Source: Verrucomicrobiaceae bacterium E54 (GTDB lineage Bacteria > Verrucomicrobiota > Verrucomicrobiia > Verrucomicrobiales > Akkermansiaceae). From it: a DNA stretch of 64,000 nt. Positions 2,954 through 61,202 of the stretch are shown one piece after another. Each line of letters begins with the position of its first letter. Positions within the stretch are counted from its first letter, which is position 1. Below the pieces are notes generated by a model. The model ran no database searches and had not been told where the DNA came from. It was given only the letters and a program-made list of their open reading frames with translations. The position numbers and the translations under genes are program-made. The DNA is taken from positions 1-64,000 of the forward strand of contig JAKZES010000010.1 in the NCBI GenBank assembly GCA_022548915.1, written 5' to 3'.

Positions 2954-4024
2954 ATGGAGCCATTCTGTCGCCGATCCACCAGCGAGCAGCTTGTTGAACA
3001 CCTGCGGCGACAGATCGAGGACGGCACGCTCAGGGGCACCATGCCCGGTGTGCAACAGCTGGTGAGGACCCTCGGGGTCAATTCCGTGGCGGTCGGCAAG
3101 GCGGTGAAGCAGTTGGAGCACGAGGGGCTGATCATCCATCAGGGAGACCGCAAGAGCAGGAGGGTGGCCGAGAGGGTGGTCCGAAAGTCGAATTTGCTGC
3201 GGATCGGCATGCTGGATTACGAGACATCGGATGCACGGCGTTGTGATGTGCTTGCCGTCAGGCAGGAATTGATGAGGCTGGGACACACGGTTTTTTCCTG
3301 TCCGAAGAGTATGCATGAGCTGGGGAGGGATCTCGGCCGGATCCGAAGGCAAGTCACTTCGTTGGATGCGGATGCGTGGATCGTCTTCGGCGGCTCGGGC
3401 CCGGTCCTGCAGTGGTTCGAGCAGCAGCGGAAGCCGACCTTTGCCATGTATGGGCGTTTCAACGAGGCGAACGTGGCGTCCGTGGCCACCCGCAAGGTTC
3501 CGGTGATCTCGGCCGTGATTGAGAAGTTGGTGGGGTTCGGGCATCGCCGGATCGTCTTGCTGACCAGGGAAGAGAGGCGGGTGCCGGAGTTGGGCCTGCT
3601 CGAGCGGTCGTTCATCGAGGAGCTGGAGAAGCACGGCATCCAAACCGGTAAGTTCAATGTTCCGGATTGGGAGGATACGCCGGAAGGCCTCAAGCAGGTC
3701 ATTGACTCGTTGTTCAGGTCCACCCCGCCAACGGCGTTGCTTGTCGGTGACTCCATGCTGTTTCAGGCCATCCAGCTTCATCTGGCATCCATGGGCATTC
3801 TTGCTCCGAGGGATGTTTCCCTGTTCTGCAATGATTCTGAAACGAGCTTCCTGTGGACGCGTCCCGAAGTCTCCCACATCCAATGGGATTATCGTCCCGT
3901 CGCGCGTCGCGTTGCGAAATGGGCGAATCACATCGTCGAAGGCAGGAAGGACACCAGCAAGAGCTTCATCAAGACGCACTTGTATGAAGGTGGGACCATC
4001 GGGCCGGTCGGGCCAATGGCATGA
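2954..4024 (+). CDS. GntR-type HTH / LacI-type sensor transcriptional regulator (copy 1)
   Basis: A 356-residue DNA-binding regulator. Residues about 8-70 form a GntR winged helix (STSEQLVEHLRRQI, then LGVNSVAVGKAVKQLEHEGL). Residues about 78-350 resemble the periplasmic-binding-protein-like sensor of LacI/GalR repressors (LGHRRIVLLTRE-type strand, PPTALLVGDS, PRDVSLFCND, C-terminal PVARRVAKWANHI). Such proteins normally bind a sugar or sugar phosphate and control nearby catabolic or export genes. It is immediately followed by a close paralogue at 4097 and divergent from the PDZ/toroid gene, which is a natural target. The ATG lies only 14 bases from a stretch contributing to the leftward regulatory element, so both directions may be controlled from one site. 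There is no signal peptide; it is cytoplasmic. Confidence 0.87.
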   Translation: MEPFCRRSTSEQLVEHLRRQIEDGTLRGTMPGVQQLVRTLGVNSVAVGKAVKQLEHEGLIIHQGDRKSRRVAERVVRKSNLLRIGMLDYETSDARRCDVLAVRQELMRLGHTVFSCPKSMHELGRDLGRIRRQVTSLDADAWIVFGGSGPVLQWFEQQRKPTFAMYGRFNEANVASVATRKVPVISAVIEKLVGFGHRRIVLLTREERRVPELGLLERSFIEELEKHGIQTGKFNVPDWEDTPEGLKQVIDSLFRSTPPTALLVGDSMLFQAIQLHLASMGILAPRDVSLFCNDSETSFLWTRPEVSHIQWDYRPVARRVAKWANHIVEGRKDTSKSFIKTHLYEGGTIGPVGPMA

Positions 4025-4096
4025 TGGGACGATCGACTGGGGTTCACACGGCTTCCGCCATTGGCATTCGGCACCTGAATCAGAACAGAACAAGAC

Positions 4097-9142: not shown

Positions 9143-9546
9143 CTGGGTGGGTTCGGAGGCAGGCCGGAAGGATGGCCTTGCCGCCATCGCCTCGACGTGT
9201 GGGCCGAAATTCGTCGATCGAGACGAAGGCATCAAATCCCTTCATGCCTGAAGCCTGATACCAAAAATAGGGTAGCGATCAGAATGGATCGTCCTTCAAG
9301 CCCATCGCATTCTTCCCTCCAGCGCATCGGAGTCGGTGCTCCGTGAAATATCGGCATGCAAGCACACGTTCGTCCAAGTATCGAGACGCTCATGAGGACG
9401 AACCGCTGGGATGGGATCAGGCAGAATGCGTCCGCTTGTCATCGGCGGGATGCCCCCGACGCCGATGTCCTGTGCTCCGGCCCGCGGCGTTCCTCATTCA
9501 CCATTTGAGGCGTGCCTGTCGCGGCCTCGTCACCAGGGAAATTGCT
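9143..9546. other. Divergent intergenic region
   Basis: About 400 bp between the leftward giant protein and the rightward isomerase-like gene. It holds the leftward copy of the shared upstream element at 9241-9274 and a plausible Shine-Dalgarno (AGGGA, 9535-9539) for the rightward gene. Open frames extending into it on both strands have no recognisable protein content. I see no RNA gene or terminator. Confidence 0.5.
9241..9274 (-). promoter_or_regulatory. Shared upstream element, copy K
   Basis: Read leftward: TACCCTATTTTTGGTATCAG, then GCTTC. This keeps the CCTA / TGG / CAG spacing of the recurring element. It lies about 100-130 bp upstream of the preferred ATG at 9142. If it is a promoter, its position supports that start over the upstream TTG at 9235. 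Confidence 0.45.
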
Positions 9547-11259: not shown

Positions 11260-11388
11260 GCCGCGGAGGGTAATGGCCTCGAGAAAGAAGGCGACTCCAA
11301 TTGACATCAACTCGGGAGCGTCCCGGAAATGCCACTCGCCTGCGAGTCGGCTGGGAAGCCTGCAATCGAGGGTTGTAGAATGGATCCT

Positions 11389-11435
11389 TGTCCTAGAAAT
11401 GGTGTCAGATGCATTCTGTTTTTTTATCGGAGGCG
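11389..11435 (+). promoter_or_regulatory. Shared upstream element, copy I
   Basis: TGTCCTAGAAATGG, then TGTCAG, then ATGC: one of the best copies in the first half. It begins 87 bp before the ATG of the first pseudopilin-A gene. The downstream ATTGAG half is replaced here by a T-rich run (TTTTTTT). Confidence 0.6.
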
Positions 11436-11475: not shown

Positions 11476-14400
11476 ATGGAGTCCCTTTCCCGATCCCGTT
11501 TCGGACGCCACAGGGGTTTCAGCCTCGTGGTCACCGTGATGATGATGGTGCTGCTCTCGCTTCTGGCGGTGGGTCTGCTCAGTCTGGCGACGATTCGCCT
11601 CCGTGCCGGCGGCCAGGGCCTTGCGATGACAGAGGCCCGGGCCAATGCCCGGCTGGCCCTGGTGGTCGCGCTCGGTGAGTTGCAGAAACAGGCCGGGCCA
11701 GACCGGCGCATCACCGCCAACAGCGCGATCTTCGACTCGACTCCGGACACGCCTGAGGTGGACGGGCTTCGGACTTCCGGCCAGATACTCGGCGTGTGGG
11801 ACAGTTGGAGCAGTTGGCTCAATGGAGAGATGGAGCTGGAAGATGGGAGCCGTCTGGCAATCGGGGACACCTACAAGAAGGGGCGCGACGAGCGTCTCTT
11901 CCGTCGCTGGCTGATCTCGCACCCGGAGCCGGATGTCCTGAGCGAGATCGACGCGCCGTCCCGCGGGGGCTTCGGGTTTGATGGGGAAAACTCCGTGTTG
12001 CTGGTCGGCGAGGGCACGCTCGGCGCATCGCCGCCCACGGAGGAACGGGTGCGGGCGGGGCTGATCGAGGCCGGTGGGACGGGTGCGCTGGCCTGGTGGG
12101 TCGGGGCGGAGAACCAGAAGGCCTCGATCGCCAATCCGGCGGTCGAGCGGCGGTCGATCGAGCAGATCCGGACCGGCATCGGCTCGTTGTCGCATGCCGA
12201 CGCCCGTCCGCTGGAAGGCTTGGAGGCGCTGGCACCCGGGGAGGTATCGGCCCGGCGCTACGTTTCCCTGCCCACCGCCGAAGTGGCGGTCGTGGCGGCG
12301 GGCGGCAGTGCGAGTCCGCTACGGAAACGCTTCCATGCCCTCACCGCCTTCAGCCGTTCCCTGCCGATCGACGTGCGCGACGGCCGGCTGAAGACCGACC
12401 TCAACCTCCTCTTCGAGAACGACGAACTCCCGGAGGGCTATCGCATCGAAAGCGATCACGAGCCCGCCGTCCGGCCGACGAGCCGCGATCTCGCCGGCTA
12501 CTCGCCGAAGCTGCCGCAGCGCACCCTGTTTTCCTGGGGGCGGATGCATGCCTTCTACCGGATGTACCGTCCGCAGCCGAACCCGATCCCGAACCCGACG
12601 CTGGCGGGAATCTTCGAACCCTCGGTGCAGTATGACGGATCCGCGGCCTTCGTTTCGATGTTCCTGAACAAGAACAAGAGGCACGCAGTGGGGAGCTACA
12701 ACGACGCCGCCTATGCGCGGATGCCGGTGATTCTCAAGCACTATGCGAACATCGGCCTGCAGACCGAGAGAGTGTCGAGTTCGCCCGAGCGATTCGAGTA
12801 TTACATCACCTTCTCGCCGGTGACGGTACTGTGGAACCCGTACAACATCCGGCTCAGGTTGCCGAACGACTTTCTCGGGCAGACCACGCTCTTTTACAAG
12901 AACCTGGAGATGGAATATCGTGTGTGGCTCAACGGGCAGCCGATGAGTAACTGGGTCGAGTTCGACTATCGGTCTCCAAACAGCAACGAAAACAGGCTTG
13001 GCGGCGATCTTCAGACCCACTTCACATCGAACGGCACTTCCACCGGGCCGCCGATCATCTTTGAGCCCGGCGAGATGCTGTTCTTCTCCCATTCGGAGGA
13101 CAGTGCGGAGAAGTACAAGAATGCGAAGTTCCAGCTCGGTTATCAGCCGCAGAACTTCGACAAGCGCCGGCTCAAGGTTCCGGGCATGGAAAACCTCACC
13201 GGCCGGCCCCGCGTCGGAATCTCGCTGCGTTTCTCCAACGCCGTCAGCCACAATGCCAATCATGCTGGCTCGAACTCCGGCTCCTTTGCAGTGCGTTACA
13301 CGACGGTGAAGGGAACGAGAGGTCTACTCCAGGTGGTCGAGGGCTCGGGGGAGGTGACGGATGCCGACGCCCATATGCCGTCTTGGTTCGGCATCGACTG
13401 GTTCCTGCCTGATCAGGCCAACCAGGAAATCATCGCCGATGATCCCCAGAATGCCGCTCCCTTCCAGTATGGCGACAGCGAGCCGTATGCGATCGCGTCG
13501 GTGGGCATCACGGCCAAGACCGCCGCCCAGCCGTCCTATCCCGGCCATGTCGGGTGGGTGGGCGACTGGCGCTGCAAGAACTGGCTCAACGCCAGCCCTG
13601 CCTTCTTCGGCACGCAATTGCTCAACCCGACCGACCGCAACCGCGCGCAGTGTCCGTACTTCCTCCACTTCACCGAGCTGGACGGAGGCGTGGACCTGTC
13701 GGCGGTCACCCCCCACAGCGGCGTGAACGCCATTCTCGGTTCGGGGGTTGCCGGTGCCGAGCAGATCTCCTTCGCGCCCGTGATGGAAATCCCGACCCGG
13801 CCGATCACCAGTCTTGCCGGCTTTGCCGGATGTCGGCTGCTGCCGGGATGGTGGGACGAGTCGCCGCTCTCCCGCGAGTCTCCGGTGCGCAGCGACCTGA
13901 CGTGGATGGTGAAGCGCCTGTCCTACCACAGCGGCGTGCCCGGGGTGGGGATCGGCAACTCCTTCGCCCATCCGATGCTCGAGCCGGATGACATCTACAC
14001 CTATCACGACGTCTCGCGGGTCGACAACCGGAACTACTCCGAGGCGTTTTCCGACTACTGGGATCATCTGCTGCTGGCCAACGACGCGCTGTGGGACGGC
14101 CATTTCCTGTCCTCGGTGGCGACGCCGGTCGATGGTTCGCGTCCGCCCGAGGAGCGGCTTGAAGCGTTCTTCAAGCAGGGCGATCCGCTCGACGATGTGA
14201 GGCTCGAGCCGTGGCTGGGTGGCGAGGACCCCGACGTGGTCATCGAGGAAGTGCTCGGGGACGGCGGCTGGGACCGGCTGGCGGGCTACCTGATGATCAA
14301 TGGCGGCTTCAATGTGAACTCGACCTCCGTGGATGCCTGGAAAGCGCTCTTCTTCGGCCTGCTCGGCCGGCCATTTGTCTATCAGGAAGAGGATGGATCG

Positions 14401-15150
14401 ATCGGCACGATCACTCCGGACGAGGACGAGGCGGTGTTGAGCCGGTTCCATCTGCCGACGACACGGCAGGAGTGCAAAGACCCTCGCAACGGCGCTTTCG
14501 ACGGTACAACCGGCCTCAGCCGGTGGTCCGGCGTCCGCTATCTCGATCGCGACCAGCTCGCGCGTCTCGCCGAGGAATGCGTGCGCCAGGTGAAGCTGCG
14601 CGGTCCCTTCCTCAACATGTCGGATTTCGTCAACCGGCGGCTGAGCGACGACGAACTCGGTGTGCGTGGGGCCTTGCAGGCGGCGATCGACTACGACGAC
14701 GATTCTCCCGAGCCGGGGTCGATCAACCACGCCTTCAAGAGCCGGGAGGACATGATCCGGGATTCCGATGTCTCGGGGCTGGGATACGCCTTTCCCGAGG
14801 CAGCAACCGGCTCCCGCTTCACGGGCATTCCCGGCTATGTTGTCCAGTCCGACCTGCTGCAGGCGCTGGGCAACTCGCTCACCGTGCGCGACGACACCTT
14901 TCGCATCCGTGGCTATGGCGAGAGCCGTGACCGCTCGGGCAAGGTGCTGGCCCGCGCCTGGTGCGAGGCGATCGTGCAGCGCGGGCCCGCCTATGTCGAT
15001 CCGGCGGACGAGCGTGACGTCCCATCCGTGGTCCGTGACGAGAATGGAGATGAAACGAATGCGGGCGGCACGCTTGCAGCCACCAACCTGCGTTTCGGTC
15101 GGCGTTTCGAAATTGTCGGCTTCCGCTGGCTGAGCCCCGAGGAAATATGA
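11476..15150 (+). CDS. Giant pseudopilin-like protein, Verru_Chthon cassette A type (copy 1)
   Basis: A 1224-residue protein with a prepilin leader: MESLSRSRFGRHRG, then FSLVVTVMMMVLL, so cleavage is expected after Gly14 and the helix spans about 15-36. The mature +5 residue is Val, not the usual Glu, as in tip-type pseudopilins (GspK/PilX). ARANARLALVVALGELQKQA follows the helix. The ectodomain exceeds 1100 residues and near the end has GPFLNMSDFVNRRL, similar in position to the helical domain of GspK-like proteins, and the family hallmark FNVNSTSVDAWKA. This matches the family named 'Verru_Chthon cassette protein A' (TIGR02600 as I recall), whose function is unknown. The usual B, C and D partners are absent; instead a small exported gene overlaps by 4 bp. 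It is paralogous to the gene at 24875. Confidence 0.85.
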   Translation: MESLSRSRFGRHRGFSLVVTVMMMVLLSLLAVGLLSLATIRLRAGGQGLAMTEARANARLALVVALGELQKQAGPDRRITANSAIFDSTPDTPEVDGLRTSGQILGVWDSWSSWLNGEMELEDGSRLAIGDTYKKGRDERLFRRWLISHPEPDVLSEIDAPSRGGFGFDGENSVLLVGEGTLGASPPTEERVRAGLIEAGGTGALAWWVGAENQKASIANPAVERRSIEQIRTGIGSLSHADARPLEGLEALAPGEVSARRYVSLPTAEVAVVAAGGSASPLRKRFHALTAFSRSLPIDVRDGRLKTDLNLLFENDELPEGYRIESDHEPAVRPTSRDLAGYSPKLPQRTLFSWGRMHAFYRMYRPQPNPIPNPTLAGIFEPSVQYDGSAAFVSMFLNKNKRHAVGSYNDAAYARMPVILKHYANIGLQTERVSSSPERFEYYITFSPVTVLWNPYNIRLRLPNDFLGQTTLFYKNLEMEYRVWLNGQPMSNWVEFDYRSPNSNENRLGGDLQTHFTSNGTSTGPPIIFEPGEMLFFSHSEDSAEKYKNAKFQLGYQPQNFDKRRLKVPGMENLTGRPRVGISLRFSNAVSHNANHAGSNSGSFAVRYTTVKGTRGLLQVVEGSGEVTDADAHMPSWFGIDWFLPDQANQEIIADDPQNAAPFQYGDSEPYAIASVGITAKTAAQPSYPGHVGWVGDWRCKNWLNASPAFFGTQLLNPTDRNRAQCPYFLHFTELDGGVDLSAVTPHSGVNAILGSGVAGAEQISFAPVMEIPTRPITSLAGFAGCRLLPGWWDESPLSRESPVRSDLTWMVKRLSYHSGVPGVGIGNSFAHPMLEPDDIYTYHDVSRVDNRNYSEAFSDYWDHLLLANDALWDGHFLSSVATPVDGSRPPEERLEAFFKQGDPLDDVRLEPWLGGEDPDVVIEEVLGDGGWDRLAGYLMINGGFNVNSTSVDAWKALFFGLLGRPFVYQEEDGSIGTITPDEDEAVLSRFHLPTTRQECKDPRNGAFDGTTGLSRWSGVRYLDRDQLARLAEECVRQVKLRGPFLNMSDFVNRRLSDDELGVRGALQAAIDYDDDSPEPGSINHAFKSREDMIRDSDVSGLGYAFPEAATGSRFTGIPGYVVQSDLLQALGNSLTVRDDTFRIRGYGESRDRSGKVLARAWCEAIVQRGPAYVDPADERDVPSVVRDENGDETNAGGTLAATNLRFGRRFEIVGFRWLSPEEI

Positions 15151-24650: not shown

Positions 24651-24742
24651 GCGGACGCCACTGGCCCCAGCCGAGCTCCGAATGGACTTCCTGGGAGGGC
24701 GCGTCTTCTGCGTGCCGGTGCCGCCGGCTTCGCGAGCGTGGC

Positions 24743-24789
24743 TGTCCTAAGAATGACATCAGTCGCTCATGGGATTCAAGTTGAGGGCG
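24743..24789 (+). promoter_or_regulatory. Shared upstream element, copy B
   Basis: TGTCCTAAGAATGACATCAG, then TCGC, and after a 17-base gap AGTTGAGGG. This is among the closest copies to the one at 46488. It lies about 130 bp upstream of the ATG chosen for the second pseudopilin-A gene, in the 224-bp gap after the MoxR/VWA operon, which suggests the second A unit has its own transcription start. Confidence 0.6.
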
Positions 24790-24874
24790 GGCTTGTCCGG
24801 TCGGCACAATGTCGAAAAAGCAGGACGCGTCCCTCCTTGCCGCAGTGGGAGAGCGCCCTGGTTTCCGCCAAGCC

Positions 24875-27800
24875 ATGATTTCAAAACCCACACGGATACG
24901 CCGGGCCGGCCCACCGGGCTTTGCGCTGGTGGTGACCGTCTCGTTGATGGTGCTGCTGGCCCTGTTGGCAGTGGGCCTGCTGAGTCTCTCGACGGTGAGC
25001 CTGCGTGCGTCGTCCAAGGGAGCCGCGCAGGCCGAGGCGCGGGCCAATGCGCGCCTCGCGCTGGCGCTGGCGATCGGGCAGTTGCAGAAGACCGCCGGGC
25101 CGGACCAGCGGGTCACCACCACTGCGGACCAGTGGACCGAGGCCGGCGGCGATGGCGCGGAATCGTCCGCCGCCGAGGAAAACCGCCACTGGACCGGCGT
25201 CTATCGCGCCTGGCCGGCCGAGACCGAGCAGCGCCCGCAACCCGAGTTCGTGTCGTGGCTGGTCTCCGGGCAGGCCGAATCCGCGGCCCGCCAAGAAACC
25301 GCCGGGGGCGAGACCGCCGACCCGGTTGTCCTCGTGGATCGGGGCACGCTCGGCGATGCGCCATCGGGCCGGGTGACGGTTCCCGCCCTCGCGGTCGCCG
25401 ACGAGCGGGGCGCGGCGCGCCTGGGTTGGTGGACCGGCGACCAGGGCGTCAAGGCGGTCCTCGACATTCCCGAGACGTCCGAAGCTCGATCGCCAGCCGA
25501 AATCCGCGCAAGCCTCCAGGCCGCCCGCCAGATGGGGGTTCAGCTCGCCGCCGACGGAAGCGGACGACAACCCTTCGCCGAACTGGAGACGGATGATGCG
25601 CGACGCCGTCTGGTCACGGACTGGCCCCAGTCCGCCTTCCTCGCCGACGATCCCGCCTTACCTCGTGGGCTCTTCCACGATCTCGCGGCCAGCTCCTCCG
25701 GCATGCTGACCAACGTGCGGGCCGGCGGCTTCCGGAAGGATCTCTCGATGTATCTTGAAAGGGAACCCTCCGAGGCCCCGATCGAGCCGCTCTACGAGAT
25801 CGACGGACGCGCCGGCATCAACTTCGCCGAACTCTGGCTCTACTATCAGGTCTACAAGGATCTCCAGTCCGGTCGCAGACTCGCCTTCACCACCGGCGGC
25901 AGCAGCTCGACCGATACGCCGTTTTTCGAGATCGATGGCAGCTTGGCGGCGGTGTCCCAGGATCACGCCATTCTCTACAAGCAACCGACCCTCATCAGCT
26001 ACAAGTCCGTGCTCTCGTTTCATGCCCGGACGGTGAACACTTCGAACGGTCCCAAAAAGCGGCTCGCGGTGGTTTGCGATCCGATCATCACCTACTGGAA
26101 TCCGCTCGACGTCCCGGTTTCGCTGCAGCCCGCCTACAACTCGGTCAAGTTCTGGCAGCTCCCCTACGACCTGACCCTCACGGTCGGCGGACGCACGGTC
26201 ACGACCAGCCTGCGTCGGGCCCTCGCCGCCAGCAGTTGGCACTTTCTCACCCTCATCGCCGGCAAGGTGCAGCCCATCGTGCTCAAGCCCGGCGAGGTGC
26301 TGGTCTATTCGCAGGCGGCCAACACCACCATCAGGAGGTACAATCCGGGGCTCAACTACGTCGACGGCAAGGCCGGCTGGAACCTCGGCGGGGGCGTCGC
26401 CGTCGATCTCCGCGATCCATCCGGCGGCTACATCGAGGGCGACCCGAATGATATCATCCGCTACCGGATCCGGCCCAACGACGAGGTTTCGCGAGGCTCC
26501 CGGCACTTTTCACTTACCGACTACGGGCTCTATTACAAGGAGGACCGGTCGTCCCGCGGGCAATCCCTGAGGATCGGCAGCTCGACGATCGACGGCATCT
26601 ACGGCGATCCCTACAGCTCGAGCTCGCCGAAGCCGGATGCCTATCGCCTCGTGGCCACCCAGGCCCCGCAGGTGTTCGACAAGTTCAACTCGGCGGACAC
26701 CCGACCGCTCACCTTTGCCCGGCTCGACGGCCGCAAGGAGCCGTTCATGCTCCACGCGCACAACGCCAAGACCGAGTTCGGCTCCGACCGTGGCGGGCGC
26801 TGGCTCGCCCGGCACAACCCCAAGTCAACCGAGCACGACTTCGGCACCCTCTCGGAGGAGGAACTCGATCTGCTGCCCTTCGAGATCCAGGTCGAGCCCC
26901 TCGATGGCTGGAAAAACCGGAACCTCGAGGTCAGTCCCGACGGCAACGGTTTCTTCGGCGGTGGGATGAACGCCGAATTTGGCACCAACTTTCTCGTCAC
27001 GCACTTCGTGCCCCGCCAGCCGGTGTTCTCGCTGGCGGCCTTTCAGCACGCCTTCGCCAACGGCTTCGATGCCGGTTCGACGTCCTCCGGGTCCACCGTG
27101 GTCCGACCCCGGCGTCCGATGCTTCCCCAGATCTGCCACCCCATCGGCAACTCCTTGGCCCCCTCGGTGCTGCCGCCGGAACAGACCGACGGCACCCTCG
27201 ACGGTCGCCGCACCCTCGCCGACCATTCCTACCTCGCCAACCGGGCGCTGTGGGACGACTGGTTTCTTTCCGGCATCGCCCCGGACCCGCAAGGCCGGCG
27301 CACCCAGAGCCAGGTCGCCCTCGACTTCCTCAGCGGCGACCGGCCCCTCTCGGTCGCACGCTACCGCCTGACGTCCGATTCCGGGCAGCCCGACGGCCTC
27401 ATCGACGAGTGGTTCGACGGCGACCAGCCCGCTGCCGACGCCCACCTCCTCACGGCCGCCGCCCTGCGGGTCGACGGGCTTTTCAACGTCAACTCGACCT
27501 CGGTCGAGGCGTGGAAGGCCATGTTCGCCGCCCTGCGTGAACATCCGGTCGTCACGCGCGACCAGAGCGGGGCCGAAGACGTGACTTCCAGCGAAGAATC
27601 CATCACCCCCGTCGCCAACCTGGTCACTTCCGAAGACCTGATCGCGAGCGGCGACGGCAATGTCGATGTCAAGGATCCCGCCCAGTGGATCGGTCGCCGC
27701 ACGCTCGACGATGACGAGATCGACGCGCTGGCCAGGGCGCTCGTCCGCGAGATCCGCAAGCGCGGCCCCTTCCTCTCGCTCGCCGATTTCATCAATCGCC

Positions 27801-28255
27801 GCCCCGGCAGCGAGCGCGACCTGGCGGCCGCCGGGGCCGTCCAGAGCGCCCTCGACTCCGAGCAGGCCGGGATCAACAGCGCCTACGTCGAGGGGCCCCG
27901 CGCCGTCCCCGATGCCGACGCCAACCGCTATCCCTTCCCCGAGGCCGAGGCGGGGGCCGCTGCCTACGGGGCGCCGGGCATCGTCCGCCAAGCCGACATC
28001 CTCACGCCCATCGCCCCCATGCTCTCGGCGCGCTCGGACTCGTTCGTCATTCGCGCCTACGGCGAATCGGTCAGCGGCGGCAAGGTCGTCGCCCGCGCCT
28101 GGTGCGAGGCCGTGGTCGAGAGGCAGGCCGCGTTCGTCAGCCCCCAGGACGAGCCGAACACCGCCGCCGCCGATCTGGTGTCGGACGTCAACCGCCGCTT
28201 CGGACGTCGTTTCGAGCTGGTGTCCTTCCGCTGGCTCCACCCGAACGAGGTATGA
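24875..28255 (+). CDS. Giant pseudopilin-like protein, Verru_Chthon cassette A type (copy 2)
   Basis: From the ATG at 24875 the protein has 1126 residues; an earlier in-frame start at 24809 would place 22 extra residues before the leader. The prepilin leader is MISKPTRIRRAGPPG, then FALVVTVSLMVLL, with expected cleavage after Gly15 and Val (not Glu) at mature position 5. Like copy 1 it continues with an AEARANARLALALAIGQLQ segment, a large ectodomain, the FNVNSTSVEAWKA hallmark at about residue 870 and GPFLSLADFINRR at about 963. The ends are conserved between the copies and the middle is strongly diverged. It is followed with a 4-bp overlap by a small exported gene, repeating the A-plus-partner arrangement at 11476-15869. 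Confidence 0.85.
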   Translation: MISKPTRIRRAGPPGFALVVTVSLMVLLALLAVGLLSLSTVSLRASSKGAAQAEARANARLALALAIGQLQKTAGPDQRVTTTADQWTEAGGDGAESSAAEENRHWTGVYRAWPAETEQRPQPEFVSWLVSGQAESAARQETAGGETADPVVLVDRGTLGDAPSGRVTVPALAVADERGAARLGWWTGDQGVKAVLDIPETSEARSPAEIRASLQAARQMGVQLAADGSGRQPFAELETDDARRRLVTDWPQSAFLADDPALPRGLFHDLAASSSGMLTNVRAGGFRKDLSMYLEREPSEAPIEPLYEIDGRAGINFAELWLYYQVYKDLQSGRRLAFTTGGSSSTDTPFFEIDGSLAAVSQDHAILYKQPTLISYKSVLSFHARTVNTSNGPKKRLAVVCDPIITYWNPLDVPVSLQPAYNSVKFWQLPYDLTLTVGGRTVTTSLRRALAASSWHFLTLIAGKVQPIVLKPGEVLVYSQAANTTIRRYNPGLNYVDGKAGWNLGGGVAVDLRDPSGGYIEGDPNDIIRYRIRPNDEVSRGSRHFSLTDYGLYYKEDRSSRGQSLRIGSSTIDGIYGDPYSSSSPKPDAYRLVATQAPQVFDKFNSADTRPLTFARLDGRKEPFMLHAHNAKTEFGSDRGGRWLARHNPKSTEHDFGTLSEEELDLLPFEIQVEPLDGWKNRNLEVSPDGNGFFGGGMNAEFGTNFLVTHFVPRQPVFSLAAFQHAFANGFDAGSTSSGSTVVRPRRPMLPQICHPIGNSLAPSVLPPEQTDGTLDGRRTLADHSYLANRALWDDWFLSGIAPDPQGRRTQSQVALDFLSGDRPLSVARYRLTSDSGQPDGLIDEWFDGDQPAADAHLLTAAALRVDGLFNVNSTSVEAWKAMFAALREHPVVTRDQSGAEDVTSSEESITPVANLVTSEDLIASGDGNVDVKDPAQWIGRRTLDDDEIDALARALVREIRKRGPFLSLADFINRRPGSERDLAAAGAVQSALDSEQAGINSAYVEGPRAVPDADANRYPFPEAEAGAAAYGAPGIVRQADILTPIAPMLSARSDSFVIRAYGESVSGGKVVARAWCEAVVERQAAFVSPQDEPNTAAADLVSDVNRRFGRRFELVSFRWLHPNEV

Positions 28256-28905: not shown

Positions 28906-28934
28906 GGGACGCGCCCGGGTCAGGCGTCGTGAGC

Positions 28935-28980
28935 TGTTCTAAGATTGGTGACAGGTGGTATTTCGGATCCCATTGACGAT
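28935..28980 (+). promoter_or_regulatory. Shared upstream element, copy F
   Basis: TGTTCTAAGATTGGTGACAG, then GTGG, and later CCATTGAC. It lies 97 bp upstream of the PEP-CTERM gene start at 29032 and just after the stop of the preceding gene, consistent with a new transcription unit. Confidence 0.55.
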
Positions 28981-29031: not shown

Positions 29032-29832
29032 ATGAGCATGACCATCCAACGACCCTTGATCGCCACATTGCTGGCGGCGTGTTCCACCGCAACCGCAGTC
29101 CGCGGCGCGACCCTGTTCACCGACGACTTTTCCGACAAGACAGTGGGCGCAATCATCACTGATGGCTTGGGTCCCGGTGGTGATCGAGCGGGGTCTTCAT
29201 CAGCGGACCAGCAGGTTGCCAGCAATTCGGGAAGTCCATTTGGTGCCAGCAACACCTATGCCGATATCAATGACAGTAGCAACACCTGGGGCACACTCCG
29301 GTCGAACACCTACACGGAGCTGAGTGGTGCGGTGAGCACCTTCCAGTTCGATTTTCACGAAACCTCGACCGGTGGCAGTGACGTTCTCACAGTCGGTTAC
29401 GCCGAGAGTGGCGGAACACTTCCCGACCGGGTGAGAGTGAACTTAGACGACGGGAGGATTACCGGGCTCACAACGACCGTATCTAACACATATTCCCTGA
29501 ATACGAGCTACACGATGTATCTGATCTTCAACGACACCGGCGCGGCGGTGAACTACGCCGGAGGCACCGTGGCCGCCGGCACTGCGGATGTGTGGATTGA
29601 GGATTTTGGGGGTGGAAACGCGACCTACGCAGGCTCGGTCAACGCGACCGGATCACAAACGGCTTCCTATCGCGTGGTCTTTCGATCCTTCAGCACCCAG
29701 ACGCAGCAGGTGTATGTGGATAATGTAACCGCTTTCACGGGTGCCGCGGCAATTCCGGAACCGTCCAGCGCTTTTATTCTCCTTGGTGCGACGGGCGGAC
29801 TCCTCTTGCTTCACCGTCGCCGGGCGTCTTGA
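29032..29832 (+). CDS. PEP-CTERM surface protein, M1-type beta module
   Basis: A 266-residue exported protein. The ATG at 29032 has AAGGAG seven bases upstream, one of few clear Shine-Dalgarno sequences here. A signal peptide (residues 1-24) is followed by a beta-sandwich of about 210 residues called M1 here: TLFTDDFSDKT at the start, FQFDFHETSTGG, RVRVNLDDGRITGLT, TSYTMYLIFNDTG, then QQVYVDNVTAF at the end. The C-terminus is a complete PEP-CTERM sorting signal: AIPEPSSAFILLG, a hydrophobic helix and HRRRAS. Such tails are recognised by exosortase, which is not encoded in this window. The same M1 module recurs in the proteins at 32943, 37489, 42098 and 42970. Confidence 0.88.
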   Translation: MSMTIQRPLIATLLAACSTATAVRGATLFTDDFSDKTVGAIITDGLGPGGDRAGSSSADQQVASNSGSPFGASNTYADINDSSNTWGTLRSNTYTELSGAVSTFQFDFHETSTGGSDVLTVGYAESGGTLPDRVRVNLDDGRITGLTTTVSNTYSLNTSYTMYLIFNDTGAAVNYAGGTVAAGTADVWIEDFGGGNATYAGSVNATGSQTASYRVVFRSFSTQTQQVYVDNVTAFTGAAAIPEPSSAFILLGATGGLLLLHRRRAS

Positions 29833-29907
29833 TCCGGGCGACAGCCCCACCAGGGTTTCGGGTCCGTTCCGGTCTTGAGGCTCAAGTAAACATCCAAGCC
29901 GAGCCTC

Positions 29908-29955
29908 TGTCATAGAATCGGATTCAGTCACTCACCGCCTTCGATTCGAGCATGG
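29908..29955 (+). promoter_or_regulatory. Shared upstream element, copy G
   Basis: TGTCATAGAATCGGATTCAG, then TCAC, with CGATTCGAG about 15 bases on. It lies 118 bp upstream of the ATG of the esterase gene at 30026. Confidence 0.55.
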
Positions 29956-37349: not shown

Positions 37350-37390
37350 CGGTTTAGCGGATGTTCGGGCAGTCACGCGGCGCAGGCATC

Positions 37391-37437
37391 TGTGCCAGAA
37401 ATGGTTCCAGTTGCTTCCTGAGTTGCCGATTGATGGC
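37391..37437 (+). promoter_or_regulatory. Shared upstream element, copy D
   Basis: TGTGCCAGAAATGGTTCCAG, then TTGC, and CGATTGATGG about 16 bases on. It lies 98 bp upstream of the gene at 37489, just after the GH85 stop. Confidence 0.6.
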
Positions 37438-42969: not shown

Positions 42970-43983
42970 TCAGGGTGCCGTTTCGGCCCGGAGGAAGGTG
43001 GCGGACTTGGCGGTGCCGAGGTTGAACTGCACCGTGGCGTTGCCGCTGCCATCGGTGGTCACCTCGTTGCCGACGAGCGTTCCCACGCTGGCTCCGGTCA
43101 GCGGGATCGGATCCAGATCCGGATTCGAGAAATCCAGGTCGTCGGCCTCGACCAGCTTGTAGTTGGTGTTGGGGGCGCCCGCGAGGCTCACCTCGGCGCT
43201 GCCATCGCTTGGATCGTAGGTGAAGCCGGCGAGGGTCACCGAAGAAGGCTCGGGAATGGCTGCGGCCCCTTCATACAGGCTGACATTGTCGACGATGACA
43301 TCCTGAAGATCACTATTGAAAGTTCTGAAGCCTACGGAATATCCATTTGTTGGATCCTTTTGACCGGTAGCCGCAAGGGAGCCCGCGTAGAAGGGAGCCC
43401 CGCCTCCGCTTTGCTGCAGCCAGATGTCGGCGGTATTGGCGGCGAGCGTTCCTCCGCCATAGGCCACCGGATTGTCCGTGTCGTTGAGGATCATGTAGAA
43501 GGTGTAGACGGTGTCCAAGTCGTAGGAAGTGGTGCCCGTGGTGGAGAGGCCCTCAACGACTCCGTCGTTCAGAAACGCGCGTGCCCGGCTTCCACTCGTG
43601 TTGATATCGCCCCGCGCGAAGCCGACATTCAGGTTATCTCCCCCGCCACCGGACGGCTCGTAGAAATCGAACTGGAAGGTCGTGACCGCATTCGCAGTCT
43701 GAACATACTCCGCCGATTGGACTTGAAATCCATTGGTTGTGTTCCCGTCGAAAAACTCGACATATTGGTTCGGGGCACCAAACACGGTGGAAGTATTCTC
43801 GTCACGGACCACCGACTGGAGGTTGGACGTCACTGCAAAGCCACCGCTGTTGTCGCCGAAAAGGTTTTCGTCGGCCGTTAAGTCTTCGAAGTCTTCCGTG
43901 AACAGGTCGGCGGCATGCGACGGAAGCGCCAGTGTGGTGAGAAGGGCGATTCCTTGGAGCAGGGGAAGGCGTGGGTGCATCAT
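42970..43983 (-). CDS. M1-type surface protein whose PEP-CTERM anchor is replaced by module K
   Basis: The chosen ATG at 43983 aligns with the start of the tandem copy at 42892; an upstream frame to 44037 adds an unlikely leader. 337 residues: signal peptide, M1 module almost identical to the neighbour, and EGAAAIPEPSS. There the neighbour continues into a membrane helix and RRRR, but this protein continues VTLAGFTYDPSDGS into an 87-residue domain (module K: NTNYKLVEADDLDFSNPD, NATVQFNLGTAKSATFLRAE). The protein is therefore secreted without a membrane anchor although it retains the PEP motif. Module K also ends the proteins at 60240 and 51772 and sits inside the one at 53527. Confidence 0.9.
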   Translation of the reverse strand: MMHPRLPLLQGIALLTTLALPSHAADLFTEDFEDLTADENLFGDNSGGFAVTSNLQSVVRDENTSTVFGAPNQYVEFFDGNTTNGFQVQSAEYVQTANAVTTFQFDFYEPSGGGGDNLNVGFARGDINTSGSRARAFLNDGVVEGLSTTGTTSYDLDTVYTFYMILNDTDNPVAYGGGTLAANTADIWLQQSGGGAPFYAGSLAATGQKDPTNGYSVGFRTFNSDLQDVIVDNVSLYEGAAAIPEPSSVTLAGFTYDPSDGSAEVSLAGAPNTNYKLVEADDLDFSNPDLDPIPLTGASVGTLVGNEVTTDGSGNATVQFNLGTAKSATFLRAETAP

Positions 43984-44251
43984 GGTTCGGCTGAAGGGGG
44001 TGGATGCTGTTGGGAATGGATCAATGGCCAGTTCCAAGTGCCGGGCAGAGGGATTTCAGGGGACGAAGTTCGTTTGGAGCCTGAGGCTTGAATCCGCCGT
44101 GAAAATCCTCAGATGTCGCGACCAGGATTGACTTTTCGATGCAGGAATCGTCGCCACGACTCCCGCGTCCTCAAGAGAATTTGCAAAGAGTGCCTGTTTC
44201 CTGAATTAGAACAGTTTGCCGATTGGTGATCGGGCCCGCCTGCCGGCGGTC

Positions 44252-46425: not shown

Positions 46426-46487
46426 ACACTCTTCGATCCCTGCCGGGATCAAGAATCGATCTTCTGGGTTCGCACCCCAGAAGGCAC

Positions 46488-46534
46488 TGTCCTAAGAATG
46501 GCGTCAGTTGCCTTTTGATTATCCGGTTGAGGGA
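46488..46534 (+). promoter_or_regulatory. Shared upstream element, copy A (reference copy)
   Basis: TGTCCTAAGAATGGCGTCAG, then TTGC, then TTGATTATCC and GGTTGAGGG. This is the clearest copy and is used as reference for the others. It lies 187 bp upstream of the thioredoxin-like gene start. GG and GC in AATGG..TTGC are 8 bases apart, so it is not a sigma-54 promoter (which needs 10). Confidence 0.6.
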
Positions 46535-46674
46535 ACGTTGGTCCCGCCGCCAGTTTGCTCCGGGGTGGGTGACTCCCTTCCGCCGCGTCGCGCGCAACCG
46601 GCTCGCGAATCTTGTCCCGATGATATGCGGGAGCGGAGGCAAGGAGCCATCACCTCTCCATCCGGGAGAAAACC

Positions 46675-47646
46675 ATGAAGCACTCAGTATCGATCCTGTC
46701 CCTCGCCGCCATCGGCCTCGCGATCCATGGCAGCCTTTCGCCCGCCACCCACGCCGCCGTGAAAGGCGCGAAGCCCATGCCCCTCAGCGAAGGCTGGACC
46801 AGCGACTTCGAGGCCGCCCGCAAGCAGGCGGCCGCGGAAAACAAGAACCTGCTTCTCGACTTCACCGGTTCCGACTGGTGCGGGCCATGCATCAATCTCA
46901 AGAAAACCATCCTCGGCAAGGATGCCTTCAAGCAGGGCGTGAAGGACACCTACATCCTGGTCGAACTCGACTACCCGCGCGACAAGTCGCTGCAGACCGA
47001 GGAGACCGTCCAACAGAACCGGGCACTCGCCCAGCTCTACTCGATCAAGAGCTTTCCCACGGTCCTCTTGACGGATGCCGAAGGACGTCCCTTTGCCCAG
47101 ATGACCGGTTTCGGAATGGAGCCGGAGGAGTATGCCAAGGAGGTCAACGAGAAGATCTCCGCCCTCACGCGTCGCGACGAGGCCCTCGCCAAGGCCAGAG
47201 AACTGGAAGGCCCCGAGAAGGCGAGGGCATTGTTCGAAGCCCTCGAATCCATGAAGCTGAGGGACGAGCATATCGCGAGCTTCTACGGAAACCTGATCGA
47301 ACAGATCAAGGAAGCCGATCCCGATGACGAATCGGGCGCTACCCGGGCACTCGGGATGCGGAAGAAGCTGAGCGAACTGTTCGCCGAGCTGAAACCTCTG
47401 GGGCGCGCGTCGAAAATGGACGAGGCCCTGGCCTTGTTGGACGATGCCCTCGCCTCCGGTGACTTCGAGGGCGAGATCAAGCAGCAGGTCGGCTACGAGA
47501 AGGTCCGGGTCCTGCGGGCGATGAAGAAGAACGACGCAGCCATCCAGGCGGCGGAGGAAGCGGTGGCCATCGCTCCCGATGGCAAATGGGTGCGCCTGTT
47601 GGAAGGAATCAAGGGCCAGCTTGAGAAGGAAAAGAGCTCCGAGTGA
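46675..47646 (+). CDS. Exported thioredoxin-fold protein
   Basis: A 323-residue protein with a signal peptide (about 1-27, ATHA-A) and a GGGAGA Shine-Dalgarno before the ATG. Residues about 40-155 form a thioredoxin domain: NLLLDFTGSDWCGPCINLKK with Cys69 and Cys72 in the CxxC active site, and the cis-Pro segment SIKSFPTVLLTDAEGRP. The remaining 160 residues are helical with TPR-like spacing and a charged end. It probably acts as a periplasmic thiol-disulfide oxidoreductase helping secreted proteins fold. It is monocistronic: repeats on both sides isolate it from its neighbours. Confidence 0.9.
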   Translation: MKHSVSILSLAAIGLAIHGSLSPATHAAVKGAKPMPLSEGWTSDFEAARKQAAAENKNLLLDFTGSDWCGPCINLKKTILGKDAFKQGVKDTYILVELDYPRDKSLQTEETVQQNRALAQLYSIKSFPTVLLTDAEGRPFAQMTGFGMEPEEYAKEVNEKISALTRRDEALAKARELEGPEKARALFEALESMKLRDEHIASFYGNLIEQIKEADPDDESGATRALGMRKKLSELFAELKPLGRASKMDEALALLDDALASGDFEGEIKQQVGYEKVRVLRAMKKNDAAIQAAEEAVAIAPDGKWVRLLEGIKGQLEKEKSSE

Positions 47647-48829: not shown

Positions 48830-48932
48830 AGCTCCGCAGCTTGTCCCGCTGGCACGAACGCAGGTTCAAGGAACGGGGGAAGGAATCCCGCCTGCCGGGT
48901 GGGCGGGGGTCGACGAGGGGCACTGAATCAGC

Positions 48933-48979
48933 TGTCCTGGAAATGGAAATAGTTGATGGAGGGGTTCCGGATTGATCAC
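48933..48979 (+). promoter_or_regulatory. Shared upstream element, copy H
   Basis: TGTCCTGGAAATGGAAATAG, then TTGA, with CGGATTGATC about 16 bases on. It lies 196 bp upstream of the start at 49129. The 299-bp gap 48830-49128 otherwise shows only a GC-rich hairpin without U-tract at about 48887-48907. Confidence 0.5.
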
Positions 48980-50768: not shown

Positions 50769-50806
50769 GTGCTTGGAGGAGAGGCGAAAGCGATACTTCG
50801 ATTGCC

Positions 50807-50853
50807 TGTGCTAACAATGGCAACAGATACCTCGGAGCTTTTGGATTGAGAGT
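50807..50853 (+). promoter_or_regulatory. Shared upstream element, copy E
   Basis: TGTGCTAACAATGGCAACAG, then ATAC, with GGATTGAGAG about 16 bases on. It lies 124 bp upstream of the PEP-CTERM gene at 50931 and appears to serve the closely spaced run 50931-60014. Confidence 0.6.
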
Positions 50854-51771: not shown

Positions 51772-53445
51772 GTGAGAACCCAGACCCTTTCCGTTGTGGT
51801 GTTTCGGCTCGCCTTTACGCTGATCGCCTTGGCAGGCCTGACGCCGCAGGCGCATGCCGAAAGCGCCTTGCTGGCGAAGGTGCGGGACGGGGATGACGTG
51901 AAGGTCGTCCTGCTCGGCACCAGTCTCACGGACAACGGGACCTGGCCGGCGTCCCTCCAAACCTGGCTCACCAGCGAGTCGCCCGGGCCGGGAACGGTCA
52001 CCGTGGTCAATCGCGCCGCGGGCGGCGAGGCCTCGGATCACGGCCTCGCCGTACAGACGCCCGCCGCCCTTTTGGACAACCCGGACTGCGTGTTCATCGA
52101 GTTTTCGATGAATGACGCGGCCACCTCGAAGAACATCACCCTGCAGCAGTCCGAGGACAACCTGAACGCGATGATCGACGCCTTCGTCGCCCAGAACCCG
52201 GACGTCATCATCGTCCTGCAGACGATGAACAACCTGCCTCCGGACACCTCGCCCTTCAGCCCACGGGTCAACCTGAACGGCTACTATCAAATCTATCGCG
52301 ACGTCGCGGCGGCCCGGGGCGCGATCCTGATCGACCATTATCCGAACTGGCTGGACCTCTACACCAACGACCTCGCGACCTGGCAAAGCTACATGGAAGA
52401 TGCCGTGCACCCCAACCCACTCGGACAGGACCAGGTTCTTTTTCCTGAGCTGCAGGCGGTGCTGGGGCCTCCGGCGGCTCCTCCATCCGTCTCCGACACC
52501 CTGATCTTCCAGGATGACTTCGACGGCGCAGGCGGTAGTCCTCTCGATGGCACCACGCCGGATGTCACCCAGGGCTCCACGGTCTGGGTGGCGGATGCCG
52601 AATACGAGGCCGATGGCTCGGCGTTGATCAACACGGAGAATCCATCGCGGCGTGCGTATCTGACTCTGGGAAACCTGATCGACGACAACCGTGGCAACGC
52701 GGACGCGCTCTACACACTCTCGGCCACGATCAACGTCCCGCCCGGCACCACCGGCATCTGGGAGGCCATCGGCTTCTGGAACAATGACACACCGCTCGAG
52801 AATTTTGGTACCGGCGGAGGCGAATTGGGCGGCCAACCGCGCGGCACCGCCTGGATGCTTCGCCGGGACAACGCTCAAATCCGTGTGTTCAGGGGCGTCG
52901 GCTTGGGTGGCACACTCACCGAGTCCACGGCCTCGCCGAACAATGTGGCCGGGACCCTCGACTTCAAGGTCGTCCTCGACCTGACCGACTGGAACGGCAC
53001 CGACAACTGGGGAAGCGTGACCTATTCCGCCAAGCTGTCCACGGACTCCACCTTCACCGAGATCGCCGCCGGCGAACTCGACGCTGCGAACTCGACCTTC
53101 CGGGCGGTAGGCCTGGGCGGCGGCACGGTGGGAGCACAGGTTTCTTCCTTCGAGCTGACGAAGCTCAGCCTCGCGCCGCCGGAACTCGCCGACTTTTCCT
53201 ACGACGGCACGACCGGCAACGCGGAGGTCCGGATCATCGGGGCGGCCAATACCCGCTACAAGTTGGTCCGTGCCGACGACCTCGACTTCGCCACCCCGGA
53301 CCAGGACCCGTTGCCCTTGACCGGCGCGACGGTCGGCGGCCTCGATGGCGGTGGAGTGATCACGGACCCCGGCGGCAATGCGACGGTGCAATTCAACCTT
53401 GGCACCGGGGCGTCCGCGTTCATTCGGGCTGAGGAACAGCCCTGA
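51772..53445 (+). CDS. Secreted SGNH hydrolase fused to M2 and K modules
   Basis: A 557-residue protein starting at GTG 22 bp after the previous stop; signal peptide to about residue 29 (AHA-E). Residues about 35-240 are an SGNH hydrolase: VVLLGTSLTDNG (nucleophile Ser in a GTS variant of GDS), NRAAGGEASDHG, FIEFSMNDAA and MEDAVHPNPLG with the Asp/His pair. Residues about 245-465 are module M2, close to the stand-alone PEP-CTERM protein before it. The last 85 residues are module K (NTRYKLVRADDLDFATPD, NATVQFNLGTGASAFIRAE). There is no PEP-CTERM tail. Likely an esterase acting on acylated glycans; M2 and K could be binding or docking parts. Confidence 0.87.
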   Translation: MRTQTLSVVVFRLAFTLIALAGLTPQAHAESALLAKVRDGDDVKVVLLGTSLTDNGTWPASLQTWLTSESPGPGTVTVVNRAAGGEASDHGLAVQTPAALLDNPDCVFIEFSMNDAATSKNITLQQSEDNLNAMIDAFVAQNPDVIIVLQTMNNLPPDTSPFSPRVNLNGYYQIYRDVAAARGAILIDHYPNWLDLYTNDLATWQSYMEDAVHPNPLGQDQVLFPELQAVLGPPAAPPSVSDTLIFQDDFDGAGGSPLDGTTPDVTQGSTVWVADAEYEADGSALINTENPSRRAYLTLGNLIDDNRGNADALYTLSATINVPPGTTGIWEAIGFWNNDTPLENFGTGGGELGGQPRGTAWMLRRDNAQIRVFRGVGLGGTLTESTASPNNVAGTLDFKVVLDLTDWNGTDNWGSVTYSAKLSTDSTFTEIAAGELDAANSTFRAVGLGGGTVGAQVSSFELTKLSLAPPELADFSYDGTTGNAEVRIIGAANTRYKLVRADDLDFATPDQDPLPLTGATVGGLDGGGVITDPGGNATVQFNLGTGASAFIRAEEQP

Positions 53446-60014: not shown

Positions 60015-60063
60015 GGGGAGGGGCGCCTGAAGCCCGGGGGATCACAGCCAGAACCGTGCAATC

Positions 60064-60110
60064 TGTCCTAAAAATGGACTCAGTTGCTTGGTGATTTTCC
60101 AATTGAGAGA
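60064..60110 (+). promoter_or_regulatory. Shared upstream element, copy C
   Basis: TGTCCTAAAAATGGACTCAG, then TTGC, then GTGATTTTCC and AATTGAGAG: nearly the same as copy A along its whole length. It lies 176 bp upstream of the ATG at 60240. Confidence 0.6.
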
Positions 60111-60239: not shown

Positions 60240-61202
60240 ATGAAAGTCAAAGCAAGCTTGCTCGCCCTTGCCGTCGCCTTCGGCACGACGGGCGCTTCTC
60301 CCGGCGAACTCACCAGCGTTCTCGATTGGACGGGTGACTCCGACAACACGGGGGACTCGATCACGACCACCACGCCTGCGGTCGTCCTCGAAGGTGCAGG
60401 CACACTCGGCCAGCCGGGTGCTCCTGACGGCACCCAACTCGTCAACATCAGCAACGGCATCTACGACCCCGAAGATCCATTGAGCCCGTCTTACGTTCCT
60501 GCTCCGGACACTCCTTCCGGCTACTCGGGAGGTTTGCAGGCTTACTCTTTCCTCTCCGAAAATGTCGGCAGTACGACCGCGGGAGGTAACAACGATCCAG
60601 CCCCGGTGATCATCTTCGATCTCGGGGCGGACACCATCATTTCCGGCTACCAGATCTGGAACTATCGGGACGGAACCTTCTCAAGCAACATGCTGGAGGA
60701 TTACGCTCTGAGTTTTGCGACGGATGCGGAGGGCACCGCCAGCTTCGGGTCGTCCATCGCCGATATCAACGGCACTGCCAGCACCGCGAACACCGACGGC
60801 CTGCAGAGTATTGCAGCGGTGACCGCCCGTTACATCCAGTTCACGCTGTTGTCCCGTCATTCCGGCAGGAAGGTGGGGGTGGAGGAGATCCAGTTCGACT
60901 TGAGCGCCATCGGGGGACCCTCCGCCGACCTTGCCTTGGCCGACTTCAGCTACGATCCGGGCGACGGCAGTGCCGAGGTGAGCATCACGGGTGCCGCCAA
61001 TACCAACTACAAACTGGTCGAGGCTGATGACCTGGATTTTTCGAATCCGGACCAGGATCCGATCCCGCTGACCGGTGCCAGCGTTGGAACCCTCAACGGC
61101 AACGAGGTGACCACCGACGGCAGCGGCAATGCCACGGTGCAGTTCAACCTCGGCACCGCCAAGTCCGCCACCTTCCTCCGGGCGGAGGAGGTGCCCGAGT
61201 GA
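60240..61202 (+). CDS. Secreted discoidin-like protein with C-terminal module K
   Basis: A 320-residue exported protein; signal peptide about 1-21. The main domain (about 25-225) resembles F5/8-type-C (discoidin) folds: PVIIFDLGADTIISGYQIWN, LEDYALSFATDAEG, ARYIQFTLLSRHSGRKVGVE, EIQFDL. Such folds bind sugars or surfaces. The final 88 residues are module K, nearly identical in protein and DNA to the K module at 42973-43233 on the other strand. No PEP-CTERM tail. The ATG at 60240 is preferred over the frame's earlier TTG/ATG codons because it starts the signal peptide. Confidence 0.85.
   Translation: MKVKASLLALAVAFGTTGASPGELTSVLDWTGDSDNTGDSITTTTPAVVLEGAGTLGQPGAPDGTQLVNISNGIYDPEDPLSPSYVPAPDTPSGYSGGLQAYSFLSENVGSTTAGGNNDPAPVIIFDLGADTIISGYQIWNYRDGTFSSNMLEDYALSFATDAEGTASFGSSIADINGTASTANTDGLQSIAAVTARYIQFTLLSRHSGRKVGVEEIQFDLSAIGGPSADLALADFSYDPGDGSAEVSITGAANTNYKLVEADDLDFSNPDQDPIPLTGASVGTLNGNEVTTDGSGNATVQFNLGTAKSATFLRAEEVPE

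Follow-up and report, generated by a model that had tools for sequence, protein, structure and literature searches.

The window considered here, a stretch of 64,000 nucleotides of Verrucomicrobiaceae bacterium E54 forming the first part of contig C11, carries twelve copies of a recurring DNA element. The copy at 46487–46507 on the plus strand, CTGTCCTAAGAATGGCGTCAG, stands ahead of a thioredoxin-like gene (46675–47646) and is followed on the same strand, 40 bp past its first base, by a -35-like hexamer, TTGAGG (46527–46532), and by the place that the alignment of all sites assigns to a weak AT-rich -10-like patch (46551–46556). Other plus-strand copies precede the gene of a pseudopilin-like protein of 1148 aa (24742–24762), a secreted protein gene at 60240–61202 whose F5/8 match falls below the cut-off (60063–60083), a gene for a secreted Big_5 protein with an alpha-L-fucosidase gene 283 bp further on (37390–37410), a short-gap run of PEP-CTERM, GDSL, FAD-oxidoreductase, sulfatase, and GH95 genes (50806–50826), and a PEP-CTERM-like gene at 29032–29832 that was recognized by a pattern of our own and has no Pfam match (28934–28954). 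Three more on this strand lie ahead of a SASA acetylesterase gene followed by a GH85 gene, with TCGA replacing TTGA (29907–29927), PhyH-like and URO-D genes, whose products are not exported (48932–48952), and the gene of a pseudopilin-like protein of 1207 aa, this last copy having a TTG start and no TTGA (11388–11408). On the minus strand, copies face the gene of a secreted protein of 1306 aa (9255–9275) and the gene 42970–43983 (44194–44214), and another (2924–2944) lies between the divergent genes 450–2837 and 2954–4024, over the promoter of a GntR + LacI regulator and without TTGA on its downstream side. That regulator, P0001 (2954–4024, plus strand), is the proposed reader of the motif; it has the GntR + Peripla_BP_3 domains of an AraR-like protein, as does P0002 (4097–5176, plus strand), which is 61% identical to it and has a degenerate core of 6.3–7.8 bits in its promoter (4068–4088, minus strand).

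All eleven coordinates named in the original prediction carry a copy. The twelfth in the window, at 44213 on the minus strand, was absent from that first list, and eleven further copies lie on contig C144 of the same genome, for a total of 23. The count derives from a matrix built on the 11 listed copies and then retrained; the final set consists of 24 sites minus the overlapping weak matches at C144 30580 and 28882 (minus), plus the site at 15177, and a weak match at 54083 is also excluded. Four of the 23 are weaker matches or additions made after retraining, when TTGA was already known, and three of these four have TTGA.

The core is a 21-bp quasi-palindrome, CTGTCCTA-N5-GG-N3-CAG, or C-TGTCCTA-N5-GG-N3-CAG in full, with the ends CTG and CAG (the frame CTG-N15-CAG). 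The motif had been described as TGTCCTA and CAG followed at once by TTGC, without palindromic symmetry. The first part of that description stands, the TTGC directly after CAG is found in only 3 of the 11 listed copies (3 of 23 overall), and the denial of symmetry was partly right, given the quasi-palindromic frame. The sigma54 consensus, GG-N10-GC, is absent as had been stated, the spacing being GG-N8-GC where a GC exists. The CTG-N15-CAG frame also occurs in a 21-bp palindrome on contig C213 (L124:7404–7424), CTGTCATC-N5-GATGACAG, about 270 bp upstream of another regulator paralog.

The motif repeat is confirmed as real. Matches to its first 14-mer with at most three mismatches number 18 in the window against 7.9 expected, a count that 0 of 100 shuffles reach, and the 14-mer combined with CAG and TTGC, again with at most three mismatches, occurs four times in the window against 0.01 expected. 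On the two motif contigs, C11 and C144, the 11-copy matrix scores 16.6 bits or more at 19 places, its 11 training sites among them. All 19 are intergenic, where intergenic DNA makes up 9% and 13% of these contigs, and all point at a same-strand start at a distance of 66–230 bp. On the held-out contig C144, all seven matches scoring 16 bits or more lie between genes, and each has a gene start on its own strand no more than 250 bp away; lowering the threshold to 10 bits gives 15 matches, of which 10 are intergenic and nine fit this placement. Two control contigs (400 kb) contain no match of at least 16 bits and, at 10 bits, 16 matches of which one is intergenic and none fits. In the intergenic DNA of the two motif contigs (20.9 kb), core plus TTGA stands ahead of a same-strand gene 16 times; the intergenic DNA of the controls (32.5 kb) has no such case. 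Integron attC sites were considered for the repeat and rejected on inspection, as the sites point at gene starts and do not lie between all genes.

Beyond the core, conservation continues in two blocks. TTGA is present in 16 of the 23 copies, at offset 39 in six and at offset 40 in ten when counted from the opening C of the core, and in five of the eight held-out sites, which were used neither by the first list nor in matrix training. The ATTGAG element of the original prediction survives in this form, as TTGA at offset 39 or 40, in eight of the 11 listed copies and fails at 2943, 11389, and 29908. An AT-rich patch follows 25–28 bases past the first T of TTGA, across an 18-bp spacer. Its letters are A or T in 60 of 92 cases versus 120 of 391 in the intervening GC-rich stretch (p = 2e-9), and 0 of 2000 shifted controls match this signal; in the eight held-out sites the proportions are 20 of 32 versus 46 of 136 (p = 0.004). 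By their sequence and spacing, TTGA would be a sigma70-like -35 element and the AT-rich patch a weak -10-like element. Core, TTGA, and patch together extend over about 70 bp, and the flanks outside them are near random. The idea of an RNA structure was given up in view of the position of the core, upstream of the -35; a search against Rfam of the window and of the regions of the right repeat on C11 and the left repeat on C144 (L059/L063) gave no match.

A scan of the whole genome (5.9 Mb in 255 contigs) with the model finds matches only in the first 61 kb of C11 and on C144, so that the motif does not form a genome-wide promoter class. All 18 own-genome model matches at E ≤ 10 fall on these two contigs, seven of them outside the training set. 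Three 14-mers with one mismatch lie on other contigs, and one exact match to the degenerate pattern lies outside the island described below, on C188; the pattern outside the island is at chance level, since its 57 matches genome-wide compare with 140 for a reversed control. None of 17 same-genus genomes has a model match at E ≤ 0.1, and four genomes of other genera have one weak match each (E 0.026–0.084). With a refined model, one of 386 genomes of the order has a match at E ≤ 0.001, namely the source genome itself, whose matches arise by construction as the model was trained on the island sites. These searches scored a subset of the candidates from a first look (150 of 431 in the own genome, 58 per genome in the search of relatives, 12 order-wide), so weak copies elsewhere could be missed. 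The right end of C144 and the left end of C11 share an exact 26-bp overlap with one gene reading through, so the two contigs are adjacent and the 23 sites span about 123 kb.

The motif region is bracketed by two direct repeats, C144:14440–14613 and C11:67324–67497, which are about 174 bp long and 90% identical to each other. They stand 0.6 kb and 7.3 kb beyond the outermost motif sites and contain the 3' end of tRNA-Pro(TGG), of which an intact copy is present on contig C246. A shorter, 20-bp repeat piece is seen near C11:67640. The right flank, with the L19 ribosomal protein gene and its neighbors (named from sequence), is kept in all six same-genus stretches examined, out of 12 genomes with the flank gene, and none of the six matches genes of the island's right end; no tRNA was found in the six stretches of 20 kb. 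With tRNA-derived flanking direct repeats and absence at the same place in the relatives examined, both criteria for genomic islands, the approximately 131 kb between the repeats are best read as such an island, and the block was probably once mobile. A tyrosine integrase gene (PF00589; C144:13212–14426) adjoins the left repeat on its outer side and may therefore belong to a tandem neighbor element. Mobile-looking genes, as read from the sequence, lie beside the intact tRNA-Pro (C246:1–6200), and together with the integrase they suggest a second integrative element in tandem. The minus-strand site at C144:15177 is a good motif copy with TTGA and has no convincing gene downstream before the integrase.

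Between the repeats 72 genes were called, of which 64 were scanned against Pfam (38 of 40 on C11 and 26 of 32 on C144). The scanned proteins include seven sulfatases, GH85, alpha-L-fucosidase (GH29), GH95, GH20, and GH2 enzymes, three SASA acetylesterases, GDSL and FAD-oxidoreductase proteins, and PEP-CTERM proteins, a repertoire that probably acts on a glycan carrying sulfate, fucose, and acetyl groups. Other recurring products are four DUF6288 proteins (450–2837 in the window; C144 30635–33127, 54412–57147, and 69740–72115) and giant proteins that begin with a pseudopilin-like head and match no Pfam family (11527–15150 and 24809–28255 in the window; C144 34431–38159). Several secreted proteins have in common a C-terminal end of the form (G/H)(N/H)ATVQFNLGT..ATFLRAE or a variant of it (42970–43983, 51772–53445, and 60240–61202 in the window; C144 26788–29945 and 51184–52086), a possible unnamed module or sorting tail.

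The motif had been predicted to precede units of exported proteins. Signal peptides are predicted for 17 of 22 motif-first genes (the site at C144 15177 is omitted, as it precedes only a 33-aa ORF), compared with 23 of 44 other island genes, 13 of 54 genes of the right flank, and 101 of 320 genes of the control contigs, gene and signal-peptide calls being from scripts of our own with a crude signal-peptide predictor. Measured against the genome, the bias is strong (p = 3e-5 versus control contigs); measured against the island itself, it is weak (p = 0.064 versus its other genes). It is in part an island property, and the unit behind the copy at 48933 does not share it. Among motif-first genes, 15 of 23 code for proteins of fewer than 400 aa, several of them PEP-CTERM proteins; 17 unit-first genes of the island are without the motif.

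At Pfam gathering scores, the GntR + LacI-type (AraR-like) family is the only transcription-factor family among the 64 of 72 island proteins scanned. The GntR wHTH domain (PF00392, cut-off 27) scores 27.2 bits in P0001, just above the threshold, and 32.2 in P0002, and the LacI/GalR-type sensor domain (PF13377, cut-off 26.5) scores 59.8 and 52.7 bits, respectively. A third regulator, P0003 (C144:48855–49946), was recognized by sequence and alignment, outside the Pfam scan. It is the last gene of a same-strand run at C144 39159–49946 behind the motif copy at 39064; this run has internal gaps of 304 and 123 bp and, P0003 included, may or may not be a single unit. The heads of the three proteins (residues 1–66) have 50–51 of 66 residues in common in pairwise comparison, and their recognition regions 24 of 27, whereas the rest of the protein is 46–57% identical, from which it follows that they may read the same operator and perhaps respond to different ligands. 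The genome contains 19 matches to the regulator family at E ≤ 1e-20, and among the listed matches outside the island none exceeds 46% identity. At E ≤ 1e-98 to P0001, the 386 genomes of the order yield only the island regulators and one homolog of 46% identity, and the best segment identity in a GTDB scan is 48%; going by the named relatives of the regulator in that scan, the organism would belong to Verrucomicrobiota, near Akkermansiaceae. Comparison of P0001 with PDB sequences gave four matches, all LacI-type chains, and no AraR.

The core at 2943 ends nine bases ahead of the P0001 start codon and overlaps the P0001 promoter. Promoters of homologous regulators were collected from the own genome, from relatives, and from Verrucomicrobiota in GTDB. 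A de novo search of 74 of them yields the motif TTTnttCTTGaCAaCTatCC, which starts at -45 to -41 in 52, with a log-likelihood of 223 versus 66–75 in three shuffles. Its best match in the P0001 promoter is at -44, and the P0002 and P0003 promoters match it poorly (3.0 and 0.5 bits). After this -35-like motif, many homologs have an inverted repeat of the type CCTGTCC-N6-GGACAGG whose letters vary between homologs. For an anchored test of these arms, 78 rows were reduced to 67 by dropping near-identical promoters and those with no -35-like hexamer, and to 64 by setting aside the three island genes. In these 64 homologs, an arm matches its own partner at 4.75 of 7 positions versus 4.22 for permuted partners (z = 5.35, 0 of 5000 permutations), and 18 have at least six of seven matches versus 5.0 when permuted; many homologs thus seem to have an auto-operator after the -35. 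In the P0001 promoter this very place is occupied by the island motif, CTGGCACCGAATCTAGGATAG in the direction of the gene. The P0002 promoter has the degenerate copy (6–8 bits), and that of P0003 lacks the core (1.0 and -0.9 bits).

Several observations count against pairing the motif with these regulators, among them the missing TTGA at 2943 and the promoters of P0002 and P0003. Unanchored inverted repeats with six of seven arm matches occur in 34 of 78 promoters, a modest excess over 18% in shuffled sequences and 31% in distant controls, and perfect 6-bp arms occur in 6 of 75 family promoters, a weak signal. The island core is asymmetric, its right side extending one or two bases beyond what is seen in the symmetric repeats of several homologs, and the core matrix scores at most 13.5, below the scores of the island, at 14 own-genome and six G002 paralog loci. 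Around other paralogs, the core–TTGA geometry gave one match in 14 own-genome loci, none in six G002 loci, and three in 27 GTDB loci (per 10 kb of intergenic DNA, 0.4 around paralogs, 7.65 in the island, and 0 in the control), so activation is no shown trait of the family. When the neighborhood of each paralog was searched for further copies of that paralog's operator, 41 matches were counted versus 22 expected, as raw counts.

Our preferred interpretation, which we consider probable, takes the element to be the operator of a sugar-responsive GntR/LacI-type regulator encoded on the island, together with the promoter under its control. A dimer of the regulator would bind CTGTCC..GG..CAG and contact RNA polymerase from about -65, switching on about 20 promoters that serve PEP-CTERM genes and genes for secreted glycan-degrading proteins, while P0001 would repress its own gene through the same site, which overlaps its own promoter; the LacI-type domain may sense a sugar released by the island enzymes. 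The value of -65 for the operator center at the targets comes from counting the AT-rich patch as the -10. A fixed position there suits an activator, and the site over the P0001 promoter is in a repressor position. P0002 and P0003 are probably also readers of the operator. Against this interpretation, the reader could be a regulator whose gene lies elsewhere in the genome. Of the two possibilities originally raised, an activator site and an alternative sigma factor, the first is favored by the constant distance between the core and a sigma70-like -35 downstream of it and by the copy in the promoter of an island regulator, and the second is disfavored by the confinement to one island, the conserved span of about 70 bp, and the sigma70-like downstream block.

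The same operator and regulator might instead act by repression at the targets, from an upstream or looping operator and with a sugar relieving the effect. Such an arrangement would resemble Bacillus AraR, described as a repressor released by arabinose (PMC4218819), and would suit the repressor-like overlap of the 2943 copy with the regulator's own promoter. At the targets, however, the sites lie upstream of TTGA and the -10-like patch, not over them, and at a fixed distance, and we regard repression there as unlikely.

A promoter class of an alternative, ECF-type sigma factor, with TGTCC as its -35 and CAG as its -10, would account for the constant spacing. ECF groups with TGTC-type -35 elements exist, and ECF promoters have -35 and -10 blocks about 16 bp apart with no further block. 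Here, only 12 bp separate TGTCC from CAG, a second block, TTGA, follows at 39/40 and then the AT-rich patch, model matches are found in one island only, and no sigma factor family reaches the Pfam gathering score in the 64 of 72 island proteins, which leaves this explanation very little room. Equally improbable is that the element is a dispersed repeat or a leader RNA that multiplied when gene cassettes were duplicated and that has no regulatory function. The downstream genes do include paralogs (PEP-CTERM, pseudopilin-like), so some motif copies may be duplicates, but conservation is confined to the core, TTGA, and the -10-like patch, unrelated genes are preceded as well, and the core lies upstream of the -35 and hence outside the RNA. 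Least credible of all is a degenerate sigma54 promoter (TGG...TTGC), for which the superficial resemblance of TGG-N3-CAG-TTGC to -24/-12 elements and the RpoN dependence of PEP-CTERM genes in other phyla, with one such gene reported in PMC9850573, are offset by the 8 bp, in place of 10, from GG to GC and by the lack of TTGC in 20 of the 23 copies.

If the element is indeed the operator of an island regulator, an anonymous repeat becomes a testable regulator-operator pair, and the sites provide a predicted promoter map (operator, -35, and -10) for secreted sulfatases, glycosidases, and PEP-CTERM proteins of Verrucomicrobiota. With no significant model match elsewhere in the host genome, the distribution suggests that this island for glycan degradation came with a control circuit of its own. 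In the wider regulator family the operator arms co-vary, and the family thus lends itself to the study of how GntR specificity is encoded. A more general proposal, which we offer tentatively and would not yet call probable, is that Verrucomicrobiota use a large family of GntR/LacI chimeras whose operators and DNA-binding domains co-diverge into private codes, and that one such code has expanded to 23 promoters in an approximately 131-kb glycan island integrated at tRNA-Pro, its protein activating from about -65 and repressing itself so that the network of the island would be insulated.

Among open-licence PMC articles, as represented by their titles and the beginnings of their abstracts, no description of the motif or of such a regulon in Verrucomicrobia was found. 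The N-terminal 60 residues of two of the pseudopilin-like giants resemble Verru_Chthon cassette protein A (TIGR02600; E 5e-7 and 8e-4), but with scores of 28 and 17 versus a cut-off of 332 the giants are not members of that family. PEP-CTERM/exosortase regulation by PrsK/PrsR and sigma54 is likewise a system in which a promoter motif is common to PEP-CTERM genes; unlike that system, the present motif has no sigma54 spacing, precedes many genes that are not PEP-CTERM genes, and is confined to an island. With AraR of B. subtilis, P0001 and P0002 have in common the order of GntR and Peripla_BP_3 domains and, in the interpretation proposed here, a regulon of polysaccharide-degrading genes that has several operators (PMC4218819, PMC4494728). 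The operators of AraR are palindromic, and the island motif is quasi-palindromic. At least eight AraR boxes, At(T/A)tGTaCGTAcaa(A/T)T, are given for five promoters (PMC4218819). The differences are an ara box of 16 bp, GTACGTAC, versus a 21-bp core here, present at 23 sites and upstream of the -35, and a repressor as described for AraR (PMC4218819, PMC4494728) versus the activation proposed here. As operator sequence and length differ, the island regulators are not filed as AraR, and the architecture alone is common to both. The polysaccharide-utilization loci offer a further parallel, with sulfatases, GH2, GH20, GH29, GH85, and GH95 enzymes, and acetylesterases under local regulators. Control of such loci elsewhere is by SusR or hybrid two-component systems, whereas here one motif runs through about 123 kb and GntR/LacI chimeras are the predicted control.
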